From NCBI RefSeq assembly GCF_016785085.1, contig NZ_JAENHO010000008.1, positions 434,001 through 498,000 on the forward strand: a DNA stretch of 64,000 nt, given 5' to 3'. The position numbers and the translations under genes were made by a program. The notes below the pieces were generated by a model. It was not told the origin of the DNA, made no database searches, and worked only from the letters and a program-made list of their open reading frames with translations. Source of the stretch: Paractinoplanes lichenicola. GTDB lineage: Bacteria; Actinomycetota; Actinomycetes; Mycobacteriales; Micromonosporaceae. This document shows, piece after piece, positions 3,818 to 49,128 of the stretch (the stretch's first letter is position 1; the number at the start of each line of letters is the position of its first letter).

Positions 3818-3845
3818 TCCGACCGCTCAGACGCCGCGCGACCGT

Positions 3846-4014
3846 CGGCTGTTGCTGCTCAGACGCCGGCTGACGGCCAGCTGTCGCTCTGACGCCGGGC
3901 GGCCGTCGGCTGTTGCTCTGACGCTGGGCGGCCGCCGGCTGTTGCTCTGACGCTGGGCGGCCGCCGGCTGTTGCTCTGACGCTGGGCGGCCGCCGGCTGT
4001 TGCTCAGACGAGGG
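3846..4014. repeat. Tandem 29-bp repeat, about six copies, between convergent genes
   Basis: The core CGGCTGTTGCTCTGACGC recurs at 3907, 3936, 3965 and 3994 with exact 29-nt spacing. Two degenerate copies start near 3846 and 3876. There are no unique spacers, so it is not CRISPR. The period is not a multiple of three and the last unit overlaps the stop codon of the gene on the minus strand, so the array is non-coding. Confidence 0.9.
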
Positions 4015-5397: not shown

Positions 5398-6225
5398 TTA
5401 ATTCCGCCGCCGGCGCGGCATGCTCTCGAAGCCGGTGGGCATCGCCTGGGTCTCGGTCTGCCACGCCGGCTGCCGCCGGTTGCGCAGCCGTAGCCGCAGC
5501 AGCATGCCGACCCCCAGGAAGACCATCAGCGCGCCCACGATCAGGCCCACGCCGAGCACGTTCGAGCTGTTCGAGGCCGGGGTCAGGGCCGCCTGGTCGG
5601 TCGCGGCGGGCGCCGCGTCCTGCGTCTGTTCGTCGACCGGCTCGTCCTCGACGGGCGCGTCCTCGGTCGGCACGGCCGAGGGGGTCGGCGACGGGCTCGG
5701 GCTCTCGCTCGGCTCGGCCGCGACCGGGCTGACCACGCGGGACTCGGTGCCGGTGGAGCTGAGCAGCCGGCCCGCCGCGTCGAAGGCCTGCGCCTGGAAG
5801 ACCACCTCACCGTCGTCGGGGCCGGTGAACGCGATGTCCCAGCGGCCGGTCACCGTGCGGTCCCGGCAGAGCTGCCCCGGGTCGAGCCGCTCGTCGACCA
5901 CGGTCGCCGTCTCGTCGTCGACCCCGGCTCGTACGGGGAAGGACTGGTTGTTCTCGACCCGGGTCACCCGGACCTGGTCGAGGCTGATGCCCTTGGTCTC
6001 GATGCTCAGCGCCCACCGCACCTTGAGGCAGCGCAGGCCGCGATCGGTGGAGGCGACCGCCGTGAGCGTTCCGGCGTTCTTGCCGGTCGTGAAAGTCTGG
6101 GGCGCCTGCCCCACCTTGACCTCGAACCCCGGCACGTCGGCGCGCGCCGGGGAGGCCCACGCCAGCGTCGCCACGGCGACGAGGACAGCGCTGATCCGAG
6201 TCCCCCCTCGGGCCAGGTGCCGCAT
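5398..6225 (-). CDS. Secreted, C-terminally membrane-anchored protein of unknown function
   Basis: 275 aa. Of three clustered ATGs, 6225 is preferred because AAGGAG lies 9 nt upstream of it. There is a Sec signal peptide (about residues 1-29, ending ASPARA) and an extracellular domain of about 150 residues that looks beta-rich (FEVKVGQAPQTFTTGKNAG, WDIAFTGPDDGEVVFQAQAF), with a probable disulfide pair (LRCLKV and QLCRDR). A Pro/Ser/Glu/Asp-rich stalk follows, then a C-terminal membrane helix (VGLIVGALMVFLGVGMLLRL) and an Arg-rich cytoplasmic tail. I do not recognise the extracellular fold. It stands alone in its transcription unit, and a role at the cell envelope is inferred from topology only. 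Confidence 0.8.
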   Translation of the reverse strand: MRHLARGGTRISAVLVAVATLAWASPARADVPGFEVKVGQAPQTFTTGKNAGTLTAVASTDRGLRCLKVRWALSIETKGISLDQVRVTRVENNQSFPVRAGVDDETATVVDERLDPGQLCRDRTVTGRWDIAFTGPDDGEVVFQAQAFDAAGRLLSSTGTESRVVSPVAAEPSESPSPSPTPSAVPTEDAPVEDEPVDEQTQDAAPAATDQAALTPASNSSNVLGVGLIVGALMVFLGVGMLLRLRLRNRRQPAWQTETQAMPTGFESMPRRRRN

Positions 6226-6580: not shown

Positions 6581-8464
6581 ATGGCCCGGACGAGTAACAA
6601 AGAGCGACCCGCACCCGTCGATGTCGGTGCCACCGGTAAAGGAGCGCCCTCCAAGGGTGCGGTAGCGGTTCTGGCCATAAGCGTGATCGCCGCCATCTGG
6701 GCGGTCGCGATGATGACCAAGCCCGGTCGAGTCGGCTATGTGTACTTCTTCACGTACACGGAGTACTACATCGGCGTGATCACGCTTGTGTCGCTCTCCA
6801 TCACGATCATGATCGGGCTGGTCTCCACCGACCGGCTGGTCCTCTCGATCCGCCAGCGCGTGCTGCTGCAGTCCGCGCACCGCACCACCGGCGTCATCGC
6901 GGTCGCGGCCCTCTTCCTGCACGTCTGGATGAAGATCGTCGAGAAGCACGCCTCGGTCATCGACGCGTTCATCCCGTTCCTCTACGAGGGCGACAAGCGG
7001 GTCTGGATCGGCTTCGGCACGATCTCCGGCTGGGTCATGATCCTCGTGATGTGGACCGGCATCATGCGCTCGCGGTTCATCGGCCGCGGCAGCCCCTGGA
7101 TGTGGCGGGGCATCCACTCGATCTCCTACCTGATCTGGCCGACCGCCCTGATGCACGGCCTGAGCGCTGGCCGGCCCGCGGCGACCTGGGTCGTCGTCAG
7201 CTACATCGTCTGTGTGCTGGGCGTGCTGGTCGGCCTGGCCGTCCGCCTCTCCGTCTCGCTCAACCGCAACAAGGACTTCGCCTCGACCGCCGCGTCGGGC
7301 GGCCTCAAGCCGGTCAGCTCGCTGGTGCCCACCAGCTCGCCGGCCATGAAGCGCCCCGGCCGCCGCGAGCGGGCCGCGCCCGTCGAGCCCGAGCGGCTCG
7401 GCCCGGTCGCCGTGGTCGACACGTTCCAGCCGGCCGAGGTCAAGGCCCCGCCGGTCGCCCCGCCGCCGGCCGACGACCTGGTCGCCCCGCGCCAGCGCCG
7501 GGCCCGCGCCGAGGAGACGTTCGACGAGCCCACCGGCATGATGCCGCGCTACGACGCCGACGAGCGCCGGGGCCGCGGTCGCCGGGTCGAGGAGGAGATC
7601 GAGTTCGACGAGCCGCGCGGCCGCCGCTATCCGGGCGAGGACACCAGCACCCGGATGCGCCGTCCCGAGCTGGAGGACTCCAGCACCCGGATGCGTCGTC
7701 CCGAGCTGGAGGACTCCAGCACGCGGATGCGTCGTCCCGAGCTCGAGGACTCCAGCACGCGGATGCGCCGTCCCGACTTCGAGGACACGCAGACCCGCAT
7801 GCGCCGCGTCGAGATGGACGGCTTCGAGGACACGCAGACGCGGATGCGCCGGGTCGAGATGGAGGACACCGGCTCCCGGATGCGGCGTCCCGACTTCGAG
7901 GACACGCAGACCCGGATGCGCCGCCCCGACTTCGAAGACACGCAGACCCGCATGCGCCGCGTCGAGATGGATGGCTACGACGAGCCGGCCCCGCGCCGCC
8001 GGCGCTACGCCGAGGAGGAGGACGAGCCGCCGCGCTCGCGCCGCCGGGGCGACATGCCGCTCTACGACGAGCCCCAGCGGGGCAACGGTTACGACGAGAT
8101 GCCGCGCCAACGAGGGCGCTACGACGACACACCGCCGCCGCGGCGGTCGCGCTCGGAATCCCGTTACGACCGGGAGGCCGAGGAGGCGCCCCGGGCTCGG
8201 CGCGACCGGGGCGCAGACGACTCAGGCGCCGATTCAGGGCGGCACAGCCGCAGCGGGTTCGTCGATCTCGCCGACAATCCCGATTACATGGAGCCCGACG
8301 AGACGCCGACCCTGGTCGACATGGCGTCCCGGCGGACTCGGCGGGAGCAGCAGGATTCCGGACGCGTCCAGGCGGGCAGGGGAGCCCGCCGCGGCGGGCG
8401 CGGCCGGGTGGAGGACGAGGCTGACGACGGTTACTGGTCGCAGCTGCGAGGGGAAGCGAATTGA
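6581..8464 (+). CDS. Bis-heme ferric-reductase-like membrane protein with a long Arg-rich repeat tail
   Basis: 627 aa. GAGGAG 3 nt upstream supports the ATG at 6581. The N-terminal 230 residues contain about six membrane helices. Four histidines, H100/H114 in one helix and H179/H192 in another, are spaced 14 and 13 residues apart. This matches the paired heme ligands of ferric reductase/NOX-like and cytochrome b561-like domains, so the protein probably moves electrons across the membrane through two stacked hemes. The cytoplasmic C-terminal half is highly charged and holds about nine repeats of an EDTQTRMRR-type unit (nt 7636-7975). It is first in an operon with a NuoF-like protein (4-nt overlap), a TlpA-like lipoprotein and CcdA. 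It likely takes electrons from the NuoF-like subunit and passes them outward. The acceptor is unknown. Confidence 0.8.
   Translation: MARTSNKERPAPVDVGATGKGAPSKGAVAVLAISVIAAIWAVAMMTKPGRVGYVYFFTYTEYYIGVITLVSLSITIMIGLVSTDRLVLSIRQRVLLQSAHRTTGVIAVAALFLHVWMKIVEKHASVIDAFIPFLYEGDKRVWIGFGTISGWVMILVMWTGIMRSRFIGRGSPWMWRGIHSISYLIWPTALMHGLSAGRPAATWVVVSYIVCVLGVLVGLAVRLSVSLNRNKDFASTAASGGLKPVSSLVPTSSPAMKRPGRRERAAPVEPERLGPVAVVDTFQPAEVKAPPVAPPPADDLVAPRQRRARAEETFDEPTGMMPRYDADERRGRGRRVEEEIEFDEPRGRRYPGEDTSTRMRRPELEDSSTRMRRPELEDSSTRMRRPELEDSSTRMRRPDFEDTQTRMRRVEMDGFEDTQTRMRRVEMEDTGSRMRRPDFEDTQTRMRRPDFEDTQTRMRRVEMDGYDEPAPRRRRYAEEEDEPPRSRRRGDMPLYDEPQRGNGYDEMPRQRGRYDDTPPPRRSRSESRYDREAEEAPRARRDRGADDSGADSGRHSRSGFVDLADNPDYMEPDETPTLVDMASRRTRREQQDSGRVQAGRGARRGGRGRVEDEADDGYWSQLRGEAN
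7636..7975 (+). repeat. In-frame repeats encoding ED-S/T-x-TRMRR units
   Basis: Nine imperfect units of 33-48 nt inside the membrane reductase gene each encode an acidic pair, a short polar stretch, then TRMRR or SRMRR and PEL, PDF or VEM. They lie in the predicted cytoplasmic tail, about residues 352-465. Confidence 0.9.
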
Positions 8465-14621: not shown

Positions 14622-14655
14622 TCTTTCCTCCCGTCGCCCGCCCTGCGCTCCTCTG

Positions 14656-14890
14656 CCTCGCTCGCGCCTACGCCCCTTCACCTCGCTCGCGCCTACGCCC
14701 CTTCACCTCGCTCGCGCCTACGCCCCTTCACCTCGCCTGCCCCGCGCCCCTCCGCCTCGCTCGCCCCGCGCCCCTTCACCTCGCCTGCCCCGCGCCCCTC
14801 CGCCTCGCTCGCCCCGCGCCCCTCCGCCTCGCCTGCCCCTACGCCCCTCCACCTCGCTCGCCCCGCGCCCCTCCACCTCGCCCGCCCTGC
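14656..14890. repeat. Pyrimidine-rich tandem repeats, period about 25 bp, between ABC transporter genes
   Basis: CCTCGCTCGCGCCTACGCC units start at 14656, 14681 and 14706 with an exact 25-nt period. Diverged copies (CCTCGCTCGCCCCGCGCCCC) continue to about 14890, nine or ten in all. One strand is almost purely C/T with G. The array fills most of the 338-nt gap and shows no protein-coding signature. Confidence 0.85.
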
Positions 14891-14959
14891 GGCCCTGTAC
14901 CCACCTGCCTGACACCCCACCCGCCCGATTTATCCGACTTAACGGAAAAGGTTCCTGCC

Positions 14960-15700: not shown

Positions 15701-16049
15701 CCTTCACCCCCGCCGCTACCGCCCCTACCGCTACCGCCCCGACCGCCTCTATCGCTTCCGCGCCTGGCCTTCTGCCTTTGCCGCTACCGCCCCGATTGCG
15801 TCTACCGCTTCTGCCCTTACCGCTAGCGTCCTTACTGCTTCCGCTGCGATCGCTTCCACCCCTACTGCCTCCGCCGCTGGCCCTGATCAACTCTTCTCCT
15901 CCCGCTACCTCCCTGGTCATGATCAGCTCCCGACCCGCTCGAGCTCTTCCCAGAACGGCCCCCGGCGTCAGCTGGTGGGCCGTTCGCTGTTTTTTGTCGT
16001 ACCCCTGGACGACACTGGTGGGCGTGATCGGACGTCCGGGGAGGCTGCG
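15701..16049. other. Low-complexity intergenic region, 349 nt
   Basis: Between the ABC permease and dinB lies C/T-rich sequence with many short CTACCGC/CTTCCGC near-repeats (about 15710-15900). It then becomes a more ordinary sequence that should hold the dinB promoter. Open frames cross it in the dinB frame but have no coding character. I see no gene. Confidence 0.6.
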
Positions 16050-43849: not shown

Positions 43850-44422
43850 GTGGCTGGACCGTCTGTCGAGCTGTCGCCCGTCATCGCGGCGAGCACGCAC
43901 TGGCTCTCGCGTGCCTACCCGGCGGGTAGCCCCGACACGATCGCCCACACCCTGTCGGAGCTGCAGGCCCGGCAGGCCGTGACGGTCGCCGCGTGGCTGC
44001 GCTACCCGACCGAGGTCGACGCCGCGCTGGTGGCGATCGCCGGCCCCGGCGGCTCGGCCGTGCTCGACTGGCGCGCCGGCAGCGAGCCCGAGGACGAGGA
44101 GGCCGAGGAGGAGGGCTGGCGCACCTGGGTCGACGAGGTCGTGGTCAGCTGGGCCGCCTGCCTGCTGGCCGACCCCGAGCTGGCCCGCCGCGGCGTCGAC
44201 GCGGTCGTCGCCGCGCTGCCCCCGTCGGCCGACCGGCCGCTGCCCTACCCGCGCAAGAACGGCGGGGCGCCCGCGGAGTTCCGCCGCCTGCTCGAGCCCG
44301 ACCTGCGCGACCGCGACGCGGCAGTCCTGCTCCGCCACCCCGACCTGCTCGAGCCCGTAGCCGAAATGCACCGCGACACCCTCCTGTATCTGCTCGACGC
44401 TGAGCAGCCGTCAGTCGCCTGA
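43850..44422 (+). CDS. Hypothetical protein, 190 aa
   Basis: GTG at 43850 preceded by GGAGGAG. Not recognised. It is helical and soluble with an acidic stretch (EPEDEEAEEEGWRTW) in the middle; it begins MAGPSVELSPVIAASTHWLS and contains HTLSELQARQAVTVAAWL. It ends with DLLEPVAEMHRDTLLYLLDAEQ. No signal peptide, no membrane segment, no catalytic motif. A strong terminator, shared with a convergent RNA element, follows 8 nt after the stop. Confidence 0.8.
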   Translation: MAGPSVELSPVIAASTHWLSRAYPAGSPDTIAHTLSELQARQAVTVAAWLRYPTEVDAALVAIAGPGGSAVLDWRAGSEPEDEEAEEEGWRTWVDEVVVSWAACLLADPELARRGVDAVVAALPPSADRPLPYPRKNGGAPAEFRRLLEPDLRDRDAAVLLRHPDLLEPVAEMHRDTLLYLLDAEQPSVA

Positions 44423-44430
44423 CGCCCACC

Positions 44431-44464
44431 AAAGGCCGGCACCCCGCACGGGGTGCCGGCCTTT
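44431..44464. terminator. Bidirectional intrinsic terminator
   Basis: AAAGGCCGGCACCCC pairs with GGGGTGCCGGCCTTT: a 15-bp perfect stem with a 4-nt loop (GCAC). On the plus strand TGTTTCTT follows (ending the 190-aa gene); on the minus strand it ends the RNA element at 44431-44600. Confidence 0.92.
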
Positions 44465-44600
44465 GTTTCTTGCTCTTGGGCGCAACCACTCACTCACGCC
44501 GCCGCGGCACGACGAGCGCCCTGGACGCGTCAGCGGCCAGCTCGTCGTGTCGCGGTCCCCGCGGGAGCGACGGTCCGTACCCACCACCCCGCTGGGACAT
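44431..44600 (-). ncRNA. Candidate structured RNA, copy 1 of 2
   Basis: About 170 nt on the minus strand. The 5' part carries AGCGGGGTGGTGGGT, then CGGACCGTCGC. Next is a long hairpin whose core is GCTCGTCGT/ACGACGAGC (9 bp; plus-strand positions 44540-44548 and 44509-44517). The 3' part is GTGAGTGAGTGGTTGCGCCC followed by AAGAGCAAGA and the intrinsic terminator. The 5' block (32 of 34 nt) and 3' block (27 of 30 nt) match copy 2 at 48391-48551, while the middle differs in sequence but still folds. Neither block has a coding pattern I trust. Not a family I recognise. Confidence 0.65.
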
Positions 44601-44714
44601 GGGCCTCTTGATTTTGATCTGAAGGTCCCTGGCGCGAATCCGGGAAGAAACTTTCGAAAGGATGCAGCATTCTCCTTACGCCGGGCGTTTTCGGTGCACA
44701 AACAAGGAGCGGGG

Positions 44715-45221
44715 ATGCGTGACGCGGACGGCTTCGACGAGTTCTACCGGGAGACGTCCGCGCGTATGTTGCGCTACGGATACGCGCTGACCGGGGATCT
44801 CGCCGAGGCGCAGGATGTGGTGCAGGAGGCGTACACGAGGGCGTGGCGCCGCTGGGCGACGGTGTCCGCGCACCCGGCACCGGAGGGCTGGCTGCGGCTG
44901 ACCGTGGGCCGGTTGTCGACCGACCGGTGGCGCCGGCTCAGCGGCTGGCGGGCCGCCGTGCGCCGGGCCGGGCCACCCGAGCCGGTCGGACCGCCCAGCG
45001 AGGACGCCGTGCTGCTGACGGCGGCGCTGCGCAAGCTGGCCGTGCCCACGCGGCAAGCCGTCGCCCTGCACTACCTCTTCGATCTCTCGGTGGCCGACAT
45101 CGCCGCCGAGATCGGTGCGCCGGTCGGCACGGTGACGTCGCGGCTCAGCCGTGGACGCGCCGAGCTGGCCGAGATCCTCACCCCCGCCCGGACGCCGGAG
45201 GTCACCGATGCCGAACACTGA
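44715..45221 (+). CDS. SigE-family RNA polymerase sigma factor (ECF)
   Basis: 168 aa. ATG 44715 with AAGGAG at 44704-44709. Region 2: FDEFYRETSARMLRYGYALT, DLAEAQDVVQEAYTRAWRRW. Region 4: ALRKLAVPTRQAVALHYLFDLSVADIAAEIGAPVGTVTSRLSRGRAEL. It belongs to the same broad family as the factor at 27209-27718 but is not a close copy. It overlaps the following membrane-protein gene by 14 nt, the usual sigma/partner arrangement. Confidence 0.9.
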   Translation: MRDADGFDEFYRETSARMLRYGYALTGDLAEAQDVVQEAYTRAWRRWATVSAHPAPEGWLRLTVGRLSTDRWRRLSGWRAAVRRAGPPEPVGPPSEDAVLLTAALRKLAVPTRQAVALHYLFDLSVADIAAEIGAPVGTVTSRLSRGRAELAEILTPARTPEVTDAEH

Positions 45222-46125
45222 AGTCGACGACGCTTTCGCCGCGCTCTCCTCGGACGCCGAGCGGGGGCTGCTGCTCTCCGGGCCCGAGTTGCGCCGCCAG
45301 GCCGGCAAGCGGCACAACCGGGGCCTGGCCGTCACCCTGAGCGCGGTCGCGGTGATCGCCGTCGCCGCGAGCGGGGCCGGCTGGTCGCTGGCCAACAGCA
45401 GCAACCGGGAGACGGCCCTGCCGCCCGCGGAGAACTCGTCCCCGTCGTTCTCGCCGCCACCGCAGCCGTCGTCGTCCGCCCCACCGTCGTCGTCGCCGTC
45501 GTTGTCCGAACCGCCGTCGTCGGCCCCGCCCCCGGCGTCCGCGCCGCCGACCGCCGAGGGCCCGCCGCTGCCCAAGTCGATCCCGGCCAAGGCGCTGCTG
45601 ACCAAGGCCGACAGCAGGTCCGACAACTTCGCCCGGCTGGACGAGGCCCGTGGCGTTCCCGAGTTCTGCTCGAAGGCGAAGTTCCCCAGCCGGGACCAGA
45701 AGGGCGTGAGCGCCTCGGTGCAGCTGGGCTATCGCAAGGCCGGCACCCCGGCCGAATACATCCCGGACGACCTCATCTACGACACCGTCACCGTCTTCCG
45801 CGGTCAGGGCGCGCAGGACTACCTCGGTGACCTGCGCCGGGCCGTGCAGGCCTGCCCGTCGACCAAGGACGCGGAGTTCGACTCGCTGGGCTCGCTGGGT
45901 CTGGGCGACGAGTCGCTCATGATCAAGCGGTCGTTCACGGCGACCGACGGCGAGGGCAACCCGGTCGACAACGGCTCGAAGACCGTCACCTTCATCGCCG
46001 CCGTGCGCATCGACGACGCGGTCACGCTGGTCGAATCCGTCGGGTACGAGAACCTGGGGTCGGAGCAGGCCGAGATCGAGAAGGTGGCCAAGGTCGCGGC
46101 CGGCCGGCTGGACGACTGGCGCTAA
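45208..46125 (+). CDS. Membrane protein partner of the SigE-family sigma factor
   Basis: 305 aa. Cytoplasmic N-terminus of about 45 residues (PNTEVDDAFAALSSDAERG), one helix (GLAVTLSAVAVIAVAASGAGW), a Ser/Pro-rich stalk of about 60 residues, and an extracytoplasmic domain of about 170 residues with ARGVPEFCSKAKFPSRDQKG, VFRGQGAQDYLGDLRRAVQACP and AVTLVESVGYENLG. The outside domain resembles sensor-domain lipoproteins by general pattern (PknH-type sensor-like, with a likely disulfide between the two Cys). The short cytoplasmic part could bind the sigma factor. Function inferred from arrangement. Confidence 0.75.
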   Translation: MPNTEVDDAFAALSSDAERGLLLSGPELRRQAGKRHNRGLAVTLSAVAVIAVAASGAGWSLANSSNRETALPPAENSSPSFSPPPQPSSSAPPSSSPSLSEPPSSAPPPASAPPTAEGPPLPKSIPAKALLTKADSRSDNFARLDEARGVPEFCSKAKFPSRDQKGVSASVQLGYRKAGTPAEYIPDDLIYDTVTVFRGQGAQDYLGDLRRAVQACPSTKDAEFDSLGSLGLGDESLMIKRSFTATDGEGNPVDNGSKTVTFIAAVRIDDAVTLVESVGYENLGSEQAEIEKVAKVAAGRLDDWR

Positions 46126-46133
46126 CCGGCGCT

Positions 46134-46161
46134 AGCCGGGCCCACGGCACGGGGCCCGGCT
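46134..46161. terminator. Bidirectional terminator
   Basis: AGCCGGGCCC (46134-46143) pairs with GGGCCCGGCT (46152-46161) around an 8-nt loop, between the convergent genes ending at 46125 and 46171. Confidence 0.75.
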
Positions 46162-46170
46162 GTCACGAAG

Positions 46171-46632
46171 TCAGGCCAGCCGGGCCGGGAAGCCGCCGGT
46201 GGCGATCGGGCCCCAGCGCTCGATCGTGATGCGGATCAGGGACTTGCCCTGGTCGCGCATGGCCTGGCGATACTCGTCCCAGTCGGAGTGCTCGCCGGAG
46301 ATGACCCGGAAATACTCCACCAGGGGCTCGAGCGCCTCGGGCAGGTCGAGCACCTCGGCCGTGCCGTCGACCTGCACCCACGGGCCGCCGAAGTCGTCGG
46401 AGAGCACGCAGACCGAGACCAGCGGGTTGCGCCGCAGGTTGTAGACCTTGGCCCGCTCCGGATAGGTCGAGATGACGATGCGGCCCTCGGTGTCGACGCC
46501 GCACGTGTTGGGCGAGGCCTGCGGGCGGCCGTCGCGCCGGGTGGTCATCAGGATGGCCTTGTGCCGCGGGCGCAGGAACTCGAGCAGCTGCTCGCGCTCG
46601 ACGTCGGTGTTGGTGGCGACCGTGCGGGCCAT
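46171..46632 (-). CDS. PPOX-class F420/FMN-dependent oxidoreductase
   Basis: 153 aa from ATG 46632, which overlaps the ppgK stop (TGATG). Split beta-barrel flavin/F420-binding family: [60 protein letters not shown] and VSVCVLSDDFGGPWVQVDGT. The TTR..GRPQ and NLRRNP motifs are hallmarks of PPOX-class F420-dependent enzymes. It reduces or oxidises an unknown substrate. Cotranscribed with ppgK. Confidence 0.9.
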   Translation of the reverse strand: MARTVATNTDVEREQLLEFLRPRHKAILMTTRRDGRPQASPNTCGVDTEGRIVISTYPERAKVYNLRRNPLVSVCVLSDDFGGPWVQVDGTAEVLDLPEALEPLVEYFRVISGEHSDWDEYRQAMRDQGKSLIRITIERWGPIATGGFPARLA

Positions 46633-47429
46633 CAGCCGGCCACCCGCTCGCCGGCCTCGTGCGGGGTGACGCCGTCGTGGTCGGGGGCCCGGCCGTCGAT
46701 CTCGGCGATCCGCGCGGCGCCGATGATGCCCGCGTTGTTGAGCAGCGTGGCCGGCACCATCGGGGTGCGGATGTCGATCAGCGGGAGCCAGCGGTCGGCC
46801 TTCTTGCTGACGCCGCCGCCGATGATGAACAGGCGCGGCGAGAGCAGCATCTCGACGTGGGCCAGATAGTTGCGGACCCGGCCCGCCCACTTCTCCCAGG
46901 TCAGATCCTCCTGCTCGCGGGCCCGGTCGGCGGCCTTGGACTCGGCGTCGTGACCGTCGAGCTCGAGGTGGCCGAACTCGGTGTTCGGGATCAGAGTGCC
47001 GTCGAGGAAGAGCGCGCTGCCGATGCCCGTGCCGAACGTGAGCATCATGATCAGGCCGGACTGGTCGCGCCCGGCGCCATAAGCCACCTCGGCCACGCCC
47101 GCCGCGTCGGCGTCGTTGAGCACCGACACCGGCTTGCCGAGCCGGTCGCTGAACAGCCGCGCGGCCGGGGCGTCGAGCCAGGATTTGTCGACGTTGGCCG
47201 CGGAGCGGGTGACGCCGTCGACCACGACACCGGGGAAGGTGATGCCGACCCGGTCGAAGCCGCCCTCGAACTGCGCGGCCACCTCGGCCACCGCCTCGAC
47301 CACGCTGGTGACGTCGGACGGCTGGGGTGTGGGCACCCGGTGCCGCTCGGCGAGCAGCTCGCCCGCGGCCGTGTCGACCGGGGCGCCCTTGACGCCCGAG
47401 CCGCCGATGTCGATGCCGAGAATGGCCAT
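46632..47429 (-). CDS. ppgK: Polyphosphate glucokinase
   Basis: 265 aa from ATG 47429. ROK-family kinase: [20 protein letters not shown] (phosphate-binding), [58 protein letters not shown] with [13 protein letters not shown]. This matches the actinobacterial PpgK signature, in which polyphosphate (or ATP) phosphorylates glucose. It supplies glucose 6-phosphate in glycolysis. It overlaps the PPOX gene by its stop codon. Confidence 0.93.
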
Positions 47430-47494
47430 CTTGTTTCCCGTCTTGAGGTGCCAGGTGTGCATCCGCTGTTTACCACGGAGCCCCGACATTAAAT

Positions 47495-47521
47495 CCCCTC
47501 GCCGGAAGCGGGCCGGAGGGG
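47495..47521. other. Hairpin in the ppgK/sigma-factor divergent region
   Basis: CCCCTCGCCGG and GCCGGAGGGG can form a near-perfect stem in the 213-nt gap between ppgK (start 47429) and the sigma gene (start 47643). It may be regulatory. Further to the right (47577-47590) is an AT-rich stretch ending GTTAAAC. Confidence 0.4.
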
Positions 47522-47642
47522 TTGTCGGGTGACCCTCGTACTTTCGGCTAGGCAAGGCTCATCTTCTCAGTTAGCGTTAAACCATCTGAACGGTCGCCGC
47601 AAGCGGACACGGCTCTCTGTCCGCTCTCTGGAGGACCCGACC

Positions 47643-48377
47643 ATGACCGTGCCCACAAAGGTGCCGGACACCGCGACACAACTGCTGGGCAAGCCGCATC
47701 TGCGGGACGAGGCCATCGAGGCCTGGCTGCCCCTGGCCCGCCATCTCGCCCACCGCTACGCGGGTCGCGGCGAACCCACCGACGACCTGGTCCAGACGGC
47801 CACGGTCGGCCTGATCAAGGCGATCGACCGGTTCGACCCCGGCCGTGGCGTCGACTTCGCCGGTTACGCCATCCCCACCATCATCGGCGAGATCAAACGC
47901 CACTTCCGCGACCGCACGTGGTCGGTCCGCGTGCCCCGGCGGCTGCAGGAGCTGCGCCTGGCGATCACCGAGGCCAACGCGACGCTGACCCACAGCCTGG
48001 GCCGCTCGCCCACGGTGGCCGACGTCGCCACCCACCTCGGGGTCACCGAGGAGGACGTGCTGGAGGGGCTGGAAGGTGCGCGGGCCTACAACGCGACCTC
48101 GCTGTCCACGCCGATCAGCGCCGACGGCAGCACGTCCCTGGGCGACACGCTCGGCGGCGAGGACTCCGAGTTCGAGCTGGCCGAGACCCGGGTCGCCCTC
48201 GGGCCGGCGCTGGCGACCCTCGACGAGCGTGAGCAGCAGATTCTGACGCTGCGCTTCTACGGCAACCTCACGCAGTCACAGATCGCCGACCGCATCGGCA
48301 TCTCCCAGATGCACGTTTCGCGGCTGCTGGCTCGCGCTCTGACCAAGATGCGCGGAGAGCTGCGAGAAGGACTTTAA
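47643..48377 (+). CDS. SigB/SigF/SigG-family RNA polymerase sigma factor
   Basis: 244 aa. ATG 47643 with GGAGG 9 nt upstream. Region 2 (AIEAWLPLARHLAHRYAGRG, DDLVQTATVGLIKAIDRFDP, GVDFAGYAIPTIIGEIKRHF, RDRTWSVRVPRRLQELRLAI), region 3 (LTHSLGRSPTVADVATHLGV) and region 4 (LDEREQQILTLRFYGNLTQS, QIADRIGISQMHVSRLLARAL) are all present. It is the stress/development type sigma factor of actinobacteria. No anti-sigma gene is adjacent. The neighbouring minus-strand gene encodes a general stress protein. Confidence 0.93.
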   Translation: MTVPTKVPDTATQLLGKPHLRDEAIEAWLPLARHLAHRYAGRGEPTDDLVQTATVGLIKAIDRFDPGRGVDFAGYAIPTIIGEIKRHFRDRTWSVRVPRRLQELRLAITEANATLTHSLGRSPTVADVATHLGVTEEDVLEGLEGARAYNATSLSTPISADGSTSLGDTLGGEDSEFELAETRVALGPALATLDEREQQILTLRFYGNLTQSQIADRIGISQMHVSRLLARALTKMRGELREGL

Positions 48378-48390
48378 GAACATAAGACAG

Positions 48391-48551
48391 ATGTCCTAGC
48401 GGGGTGGTGGGTGCGGACCGTCGCGGGGACCCGGCCGGCCCGAGCAGGGCGCTGGCGCGCCCAGAACGCTCGGTCCGACCGGGCGACGTGAGTAAGTGGT
48501 TGCGCCCAAAAGCAAAAGCCGGCACCGCCGTCCGAGGGAGTGCCGGCTTTT
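48391..48551 (+). ncRNA. Candidate structured RNA, copy 2 of 2
   Basis: About 161 nt starting 13 nt after the sigma gene stop. 5' block AGCGGGGTGGTGGGT then CGGACCGTCGC. Central stems: CCCGG/CCGGG outside CCGAGC/GCTCGG outside the tip hairpin GGGCGC-TGGC-GCGCCC. 3' block GTGAGTAAGTGGTTGCGCCC followed by AAAAGCAAAA, then the terminator. Shares both flanking blocks with copy 1 (44431-44600) while the central arm is different but again self-complementary. I take this as evidence for a conserved RNA structure. Family not recognised; could be a small RNA or a 3'-UTR-derived RNA of the sigma gene. Confidence 0.65.
48514..48551. terminator. Bidirectional intrinsic terminator of RNA copy 2 and the general stress gene
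   Basis: AAAAGCCGGCAC (48514-48525) pairs perfectly with GTGCCGGCTTTT (48540-48551), 12 bp including the A/T ends. It lies 10 nt past the stop of the minus-strand gene ending at 48562. Confidence 0.9.
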
Positions 48552-48561
48552 GCGCAGGTTG

Positions 48562-49128
48562 CTACTGGGCGCCGCTGGCTTGCCAGTTGAGTTGGACCAG
48601 GAGTTGGCGGGCCTGGTCGGCTACCTCGGCGTCGGTGACGACCGCGTACTGGCCGGCCTGGATGGAGGAGCGGGAGGCGAAGTCGCGGCGGCCGCCGGTG
48701 GCGGCGTGGGCGATCGCGCCGAAGACCGCGCCCCAGGCCGCGCCGATCAGCAGGCAGACCAGGATCACGGCGAACCAGCCGGAGTCGCTGAACAGGCCGA
48801 ACAGCAGGCCCACGAAGAGGCCGAACCAGGCGCCGCTGGCCGCGCCGGCCAGGGCCGCCCGGGCCGTGGTGAGCCGGCCCAGCACGTTCTCGATCAGGCG
48901 CAGGTCGGTGCCGATGATGGCCGTGCGCTCGACCGGGAACTTGTTGTCGCTCAGCGTGTCGACGGCCTTCTGGGCCTGCGCGTAGTCGGGGTAGGTGCCG
49001 ACCACGACGGTCGGGGCGCCGCCCGCGGCCTGGGTCTGCGCGGGCAGGCTGGGCACTCCAGCCGGGCCGGGCGGGATGCCGCCGGCGGCGGTGGACGGGT
49101 TATCGGCAGGGGTGTTGGGCGTGGTCAT
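48562..49128 (-). CDS. General stress protein, YflT-like with a glycine-zipper membrane region
   Basis: 188 aa from ATG 49128 with GGGAGG 6 nt upstream. A Pro/Ala-rich N-terminus precedes TVVVGTYPDYAQAQKAVDTL and FPVERTAIIGTDLRLIENVL, the YflT/GSP17M-like domain of general stress proteins. Next is a Gly-rich membrane hairpin (AASGAWFGLFVGLLFGLFSD, WFAVILVCLLIGAAWGAVFG) and a C-terminal strand QAGQYAVVTDAEVADQARQLL. Function is unknown. Its start overlaps the PAP2 gene stop (ATGA). Confidence 0.85.
   Translation of the reverse strand: MTTPNTPADNPSTAAGGIPPGPAGVPSLPAQTQAAGGAPTVVVGTYPDYAQAQKAVDTLSDNKFPVERTAIIGTDLRLIENVLGRLTTARAALAGAASGAWFGLFVGLLFGLFSDSGWFAVILVCLLIGAAWGAVFGAIAHAATGGRRDFASRSSIQAGQYAVVTDAEVADQARQLLVQLNWQASGAQ

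Follow-up and report, generated by a model that had tools for sequence, protein, structure and literature searches.

The window, a 64,000-nt stretch of the genome of Paractinoplanes lichenicola, contains two copies of a short element that flank a small group of genes. The conserved core of copy 1 (44478..44601, minus strand) covers positions 1–124 of the covariance model described below (alignment A2; 129.8 bits, E 3.4e-22), and that of copy 2 (48390..48507, plus strand; 110.1 bits, E 3.4e-18) has a 6-nt gap in its 5' block and starts 12 nt past the stop codon of a sigma-factor gene. Lying on opposite strands, the copies form an inverted, head-to-head pair. The segment between them (44602..48389), delimited by element positions, gene order and junction sequences, carries according to Pfam a sigma-factor gene limited to regions 2 and 4, a gene that matches no Pfam family, a PNPOx-like gene, a ROK gene, and a sigma-70-family gene.

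Each core encloses a variable central hairpin. In copy 1, covarying pairs and direct reading place it at 44504..44553 on the minus strand (model positions ~49–98); in copy 2, alignment A2 and the fold place it at approximately 48432..48481 on the plus strand. A variable purine-rich leader of a type that precedes many copies adjoins copy 1 (44602..44621, minus strand; flank listing of 33 copies). Furthermore, terminator-like hairpins lie beside both elements: one at 44430..44465, whose T-run a rule-based scan placed on the plus strand, and an imperfect one at 48514..48551, visible by eye and in the fold and absent from rule-based scans. An earlier note on this DNA had described the pair, and direct reading reproduced its block identities (32/34 with two differences in the 34-nt 5' blocks, 27/30 with three differences in the 30-nt 3' blocks) as well as the self-complementary arm GCTCGTCGT/ACGACGAGC of copy 1. 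In a BLAST search of the whole own genome, copy 2 matched copy 1 with E = 1.4e-24, far beyond chance. The match is thus real, and the pattern is larger than reported; what the note had said about copy number, the middle of the element and the terminators needed correcting.

The element is not limited to two copies, as had been assumed. A covariance model built from 33 BLAST matches yielded 33 full-length matches in the 10.67-Mb genome assembly (35 contigs; E 1.3e-24 to 3.4e-18, best 150 of 22,660 candidates scored), and BLAST gave dozens of matches, some of them partial (best 40 of 148 candidates scored). Across 40 genomes, 20 including the own genome contain matches, and all 20 belong to the same genus. 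One 12-Mb relative (G016) has at least 150 copies, with all 150 scored candidates matching the model, and the other genomes of the genus have from 0 to at least 88 copies each. A larger sample of the family, searched with stricter filters and with the best 11 candidates per genome scored, gave the same restriction: the element occurs in 54 of 67 genomes of the genus, own genome included, and in none of 233 genomes from other genera, so that one of 44 genera has matches. Among 80 listed loci of named genomes that contain an exact sequence pattern, the model gives a match at E 0.001 for 66 of the 69 in Actinoplanes, Paractinoplanes, or Amorphoplanes and for 0 of 11 in other taxa. The clear named matches come from Actinoplanes and Paractinoplanes; the three loci of this group without a match at that threshold are L141, L145, and L156, the last of which is the sole Amorphoplanes locus and matches weakly (E 0.0018). 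Along the 12.0-Mb sequence C1 of G016, few of the listed copies fall in the middle third (18 of 150 at ~4–8 Mb); no replication-strand bias was detected there, with 81 of 150 copies co-oriented (p 0.37, coordinate 1 being assumed to lie near the origin).

All copies share one anatomy. The core of ~125 nt consists of a conserved 5' block (GTCCYAGCGGGGTGGTGGGT..CGGACCGTCGCTCCCGCGGGGACC), the central hairpin, and a conserved 3' block (GCGACGTGAGTGAGTGGTTGCGCCC); in the 33-copy flank listing, many copies are preceded by a variable purine-rich leader of the AAGATCAAGAGCC type and many are followed by an A-rich tail. The middles of the two window copies had been called unrelated, but the middles of all copies can be aligned, with most of the variation in the stem. 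Leader and 5' block are tandemly repeated at several loci, for example upstream of a full copy at L013:2886-3140 (51-nt units) and at L017:3184-3357 (48-nt units). We also considered 5' modules that stand alone and rejected them, since all 28 exact matches to the 5' block pattern in the own genome lie inside or directly beside full copies; matches with one or two mismatches mix with background (control 13 and 13). A comparison with Rfam, which the note had suggested, gave no known family in the window at gathering thresholds; eight weak hits within 44380-48620 all fall below threshold. In the open-access literature available to us, where one query was swamped by unrelated papers, we found no description of this repeat family.

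The copies are intergenic. Genes were predicted with a caller trained on the window, and the largest overlap between any of the 33 own copies and a called gene is 12 nt, so that none exceeds the limit of 30 nt. Given these overlaps, a conserved peptide, which could have started at a GTG in the 3' block and which the note had raised as a counter-explanation, is not supported. Placement was analyzed for 137 copies with callable genes on both sides, namely the 33 own copies and 104 of 109 from other genomes (one overlapped a call and four lay at edges). Of these, 61 lie between convergent genes, 32 and 35 between co-directional genes, and nine between divergent genes, so that a gene 3' end borders 128 of the 137. 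Control placements (n=210), a small set drawn from the same loci as five placements in each of 42 element-free gaps, fell into 25 convergent, 45 co-directional, and 140 divergent positions. No recurring partner gene was detected beside the copies: no gene family occurs at more than four own loci, and the one that reaches four includes the window sigma-factor gene.

This preference for gene ends could reflect a cis-acting RNA element of 3' untranslated regions, such as a terminator, a protector of transcript ends, or a cleavage site, that is under selection and has spread by duplication. In its favor, 13 of the 21 own copies with an upstream sense gene, and 40 of 72 copies from other genomes, have their 5' end no more than 40 nt from a sense stop codon; long retention of sites, the covarying hairpin, and a wobble asymmetry like that of an RNA fold, all described below, agree with it as well. 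However, 18 of 44 control placements are equally close to a sense stop codon, which makes closeness alone weak evidence. In co-directional gaps, the element points with transcription in 32 cases and against it in 35, so that its direction follows no rule relative to the upstream gene, and opposite orientations occur at one orthologous site. Moreover, 33 copies could serve at most a small fraction of the genes in a genome of this size. We therefore consider such a role unlikely as the explanation of the family.

The earlier note had interpreted the pair as a small RNA of about 165 nt that ends in a terminator and possibly has an exchangeable arm. Hairpins are indeed present beside both window copies, as it had stated, but neither appears to be a terminator of the element in the sense proposed. 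Of the two strands, only the plus strand, which is not that of copy 1, gives a terminator for the hairpin beside copy 1; in the relative G004, the gene next to copy 1 keeps a terminator without the element (the gene beyond differs in that genome), and terminators are not conserved across copies. For these reasons, we judge that 44430..44465 belongs to the neighboring plus-strand gene 43850-44422. The imperfect hairpin at 48514..48551 is likewise judged not to be part of the element. With a simple finder, 3 of the 33 own copies had a terminator-like hairpin in the 120 nt on their 3' side, or ~4 of 33 if copy 2 is counted. No consensus promoter was found beside either window copy with a scan suited to E. 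coli-type promoters, which is a weak test in this group. The conserved blocks and the stable folding of the two copies (z −4.8 and −4.0, for stretches that include the neighboring terminator-like hairpins) would fit a small RNA gene, but other observations speak against it: there are 33 to at least 150 copies per genome, the consensus fold is stronger on the other strand, and presence and orientation at one site differ between species. A small RNA with its own terminator was rejected on terminator conservation, terminator strand, and orientation, and the interpretation of the note as a whole appears extremely unlikely. What endures of that interpretation is a family with a paired, variable middle and an exchangeable arm; the small RNA gene and the two-copy element do not.

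The pairing itself extends across the family. In a structure-blind alignment of 122 distinct copies (136 copies reduced, with 15 partial or end-cut model matches excluded, 1 of 46 and 14 of 72), the strongest base-pair covariation marks the central stem; the alignment pair 60-87, for example, is CG in 65 copies, AT in 45, GC in three, TA in three, and unpaired in five. Covariation is weaker for a 5' hairpin, whose pair 7-42 is CG in 76 copies and GC in 30. For a second count, we used 82 rows, comprising copy 1 and 81 distinct copies of 118–127 nt from other genomes, and the fold of the 33 own copies, from which three 5' pairs were dropped and to which one stem pair was added after the covariation analysis. 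In this structure, 93.0% of cells are paired, pairing falls to 44.0 or 36.5% when the structure is slid by one column, and both sides have changed in 227 cells compared with 77.8 in shuffles; the copies from other genomes were found with a model that holds the structure, so that the sample leans towards it. The note had predicted further homologs with compensatory changes in related genomes, and these exist; both data sets uphold its view of a family in which conserved flanks enclose a middle that varies yet stays paired.

The strand on which the element folds is probably the complement of the one read in the note (the minus strand for copy 1). On the strand read there, the central stem contains 120 C.A mismatches compared with six G.T pairs, a count that includes three added stem pairs (52-99, 53-98, and 55-96) and without them becomes 50 to 6; on the complement, these mismatches are G.U wobbles. 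Consensus folding energies are also lower on the complement (−50.6 versus −30.0 kcal/mol for the own copies, −35.8 versus −18.9 for alignment A4). Single-sequence folds disagree, with the complement more stable in 7 of 33 own copies and in 29 of 82 rows, and the wobble tendency is opposite in the outer helices P1 and P2 and in the 5' hairpin, so that the strand assignment refers to the central stem alone.

Covariation of this kind could arise without selection for pairing, either by template switching within a quasi-palindrome or by recombination among a few arm haplotypes. Linked unpaired columns (63-66, 63-77, and 66-77) do define two arm haplotypes, and one site shared between the own genome and its relative G231 carries different arm types (L028 versus L262). 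Against this, several pair types occur per position, with four each at alignment pairs 61-90 and 62-89, although independence of these events is not assumed; in addition, the stem keeps its C.A positions (G.U on the complement) instead of being perfected, and the strand asymmetry is strong. We regard an origin without selected pairing as possible but rather less probable than one with it. It would be compatible with the repeat family that we propose below. The hairpin tip of one G222 copy (L222:4423-4555) consists of ~30 G followed by ~30 C; we considered this as an arm swap and set it aside as a probable sequencing or assembly artefact.

Comparison of orthologous sites revealed that presence of the element differs between related genomes. 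At the site of copy 2, the model finds no match in G004 and G262, and in G004 a plain terminator separates the two convergent genes. The element has the opposite orientation at this site in G002 and G225, and G222 has two inverted copies there, arranged tail-to-tail. At locus L022, the site after a panB-like gene (Pfam) holds the element in eight of nine genomes, in G222 in disrupted form, while a second site holds it in the own genome, G231, G271, and G002, holds a truncated form in G003, and gave no model match in G245, G225, G264, and G222.

Many copies have been kept in place long enough to be common to several species. In a comparison with 27 of the 30 G003 copies and with 11 G231 copies, 16 of the 33 own copies share their 5' neighbor with a G003 copy, nine of them on both sides, and 9 of the 11 G231 copies occupy sites used in the own genome. 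Such persistence, together with that of the site after the panB-like gene, speaks for some function. In the closer relative G231, similarity is higher at shared sites than among non-matching copies (0.907 versus 0.859), whereas in G003 it is not (0.815 versus 0.812). The G003 pattern fits conversion or exchange between copies, and saturation or repeated insertion is also compatible with it. The exchangeable arm proposed in the note is borne out on the evolutionary scale, both by the two arm types at the shared site and by G231, where the arms of the window copies are joined to each other's leaders.

This exchange accompanies an inversion. In two of nine other genomes, G231 and G271, the genes between the window copies are reversed, whereas the outer neighbors have not moved and an element stands at each junction (for G003, six of the seven genes of this locus are shown in the comparison). 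In the left element of G231, the leader of own copy 2 is joined to an arm and a 3' flank that correspond to own copy 1. The right element has its leader from copy 1 and its arm from copy 2; it adjoins the gene beyond copy 2, with an immediate 3' flank unlike that of copy 2. The exchange therefore took place in the conserved 5' block, which separates leader from arm. The arms in G271 match neither window copy, which makes the exchange untraceable there; G231 is a single contig and G271 a draft, so that an assembly error is possible in the latter. In G264, both copies that border the same segment (L297:1447-1528 and 5402-5482) are short forms without most of the central arm.

A second inversion, of an 11-gene segment, distinguishes the own genome from G003. 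An element stands at one junction; the other lacks two genes as well as the element that would be expected there. Furthermore, neighboring copies less than 5 kb apart are inverted in all 14 pairs among the 150 listed copies of G016 and in all four pairs of the own genome, a pattern that would follow if recombination between direct pairs deleted the genes enclosed by them. The tandem 5' modules, as direct repeats, are an exception, and so is L134, where a weak partial match and a full copy point the same way, the partial match lying 45 nt upstream.

The copies could alternatively be fixed sites of a site-specific recombinase, comparable to the folded attC sites of integrons, and not passive repeats. 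An imperfect hairpin that adjoins stop codons, conserved ends, and the leader and arm exchange in G231 are features that such sites would share. The attC core motif is GTTRRRY. It is not conserved in the element, whose 3' block reads GGTTGCG, GGTCACG, or GGTGACG, and the copies are scattered over the genome instead of being collected in cassette arrays, all of which makes attC-like sites a very unlikely explanation.

The element is a dispersed intergenic palindromic repeat by its properties: it is short, non-coding, intergenic, and present in many copies, it can fold through inverted repeats (own-copy fold and covariation), and its presence at sites varies. In size, dispersal, preference for convergent genes, and inverted neighbors, it resembles the ERIC, REP, and BOX/SPRITE repeats (PMC2229807, PMC3733652, PMC3049150, PMC2267715). 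ERIC, or IRU, of Enterobacteriaceae is the closest in length, being a 127-bp intergenic repeat with dispersed copies, a proposed RNA fold, and no established mobilizing enzyme (PMC2229807). ERIC also has an effect on upstream mRNA stability. The present element differs from ERIC in sequence and host, in being GC-rich, in its tandem 5' modules, and in its strong covariation and inversions at copies. REP units measure 20–40 bp, carry GTAG or CGTC tags, and form BIMEs (PMC3733652); the main text of that paper contains neither "Actinobacteria" nor "Actinoplanes". Identity with REP and its RAYT transposases was rejected, because the unit here is ~125 nt long, its CGTC lies inside the unit and not at an end, and the own genome has no match to the Y1 (RAYT-type) transposase family PF01797. 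The pneumococcal BOX, RUP, and SPRITE repeats are small and over-represented between convergent genes, and BOX is modular with a repeatable internal module (PMC3049150), which recalls the repeated 5' modules of the Actinoplanes group. Terminal inverted repeats and target-site duplications characterize BOX and RUP, and the likeness drawn here is one of description. Structured RNAs of Rfam have a covarying stem in common with the element, and none of their families exceeds its curated threshold in the window.

Taken together, these results probably identify a new family of short (~125 nt), non-autonomous, dispersed palindromic repeats of the ERIC/REP/BOX kind in the Actinoplanes group. New copies would arise by transposition through a putative enzyme and settle in intergenic DNA, mostly just past gene 3' ends. 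Recombination between copies would then flip segments and reassort leaders and arms by crossing over between leader and arm, perhaps together with gene conversion. The hairpin may be kept because the folded single strand, probably the complement of the strand read in the note, is recognized by the machinery of spreading or recombination; alternatively, within the same model, it may be kept through use as RNA once transcribed, and an RNA role of the element may thus exist. The Y1 transposase search and the search for recurring neighbors yielded no mobilizing enzyme: PF01797 has no match in the own genome, G003, or G011, which hold 33, 30, and 31 copies, and it matches in 4 of the 15 genomes of the genus that were searched. 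No autonomous parent was found, and no exact 5' block lies away from full copies in the own genome. Sites without the element exist, with flanks too diverged to define the insertion point, and no target-site duplication was found at them. A possible MITE of a DDE transposon would be expected to have such a duplication and to share terminal inverted repeats with an autonomous element. A bolder model, which we consider improbable, holds that the element is genus-specific, is maintained as a folded single strand, and is spread by a mobilizing system of a type undescribed for such repeats, and in addition an inversion module that exchanges arms and flips segments such as the one with the two sigma-factor genes.

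These analyses add a large family of structured intergenic repeats for the Actinoplanes group, which includes the acarbose producer SE50/110. Recombination between copies is the most interesting feature of the family, as repeat copies stand at the junctions of small inversions in natural genomes. The shared sites, empty sites, and swapped arms provide a data set on how such repeats spread and stay alike. The case also calls for caution, since paired-arm covariation between two repeat copies can be mistaken for a small RNA gene. Repeats of other kinds occur elsewhere in the window: short tandem repeats with periods of ~29, 24–25, and 15 nt at 3835-4008, 14646-14901, and 15701-15883, respectively, lie outside called genes or at a gene edge, and repeats with a 36-nt period occupy 7601-8014 within the called gene 6683-8464.
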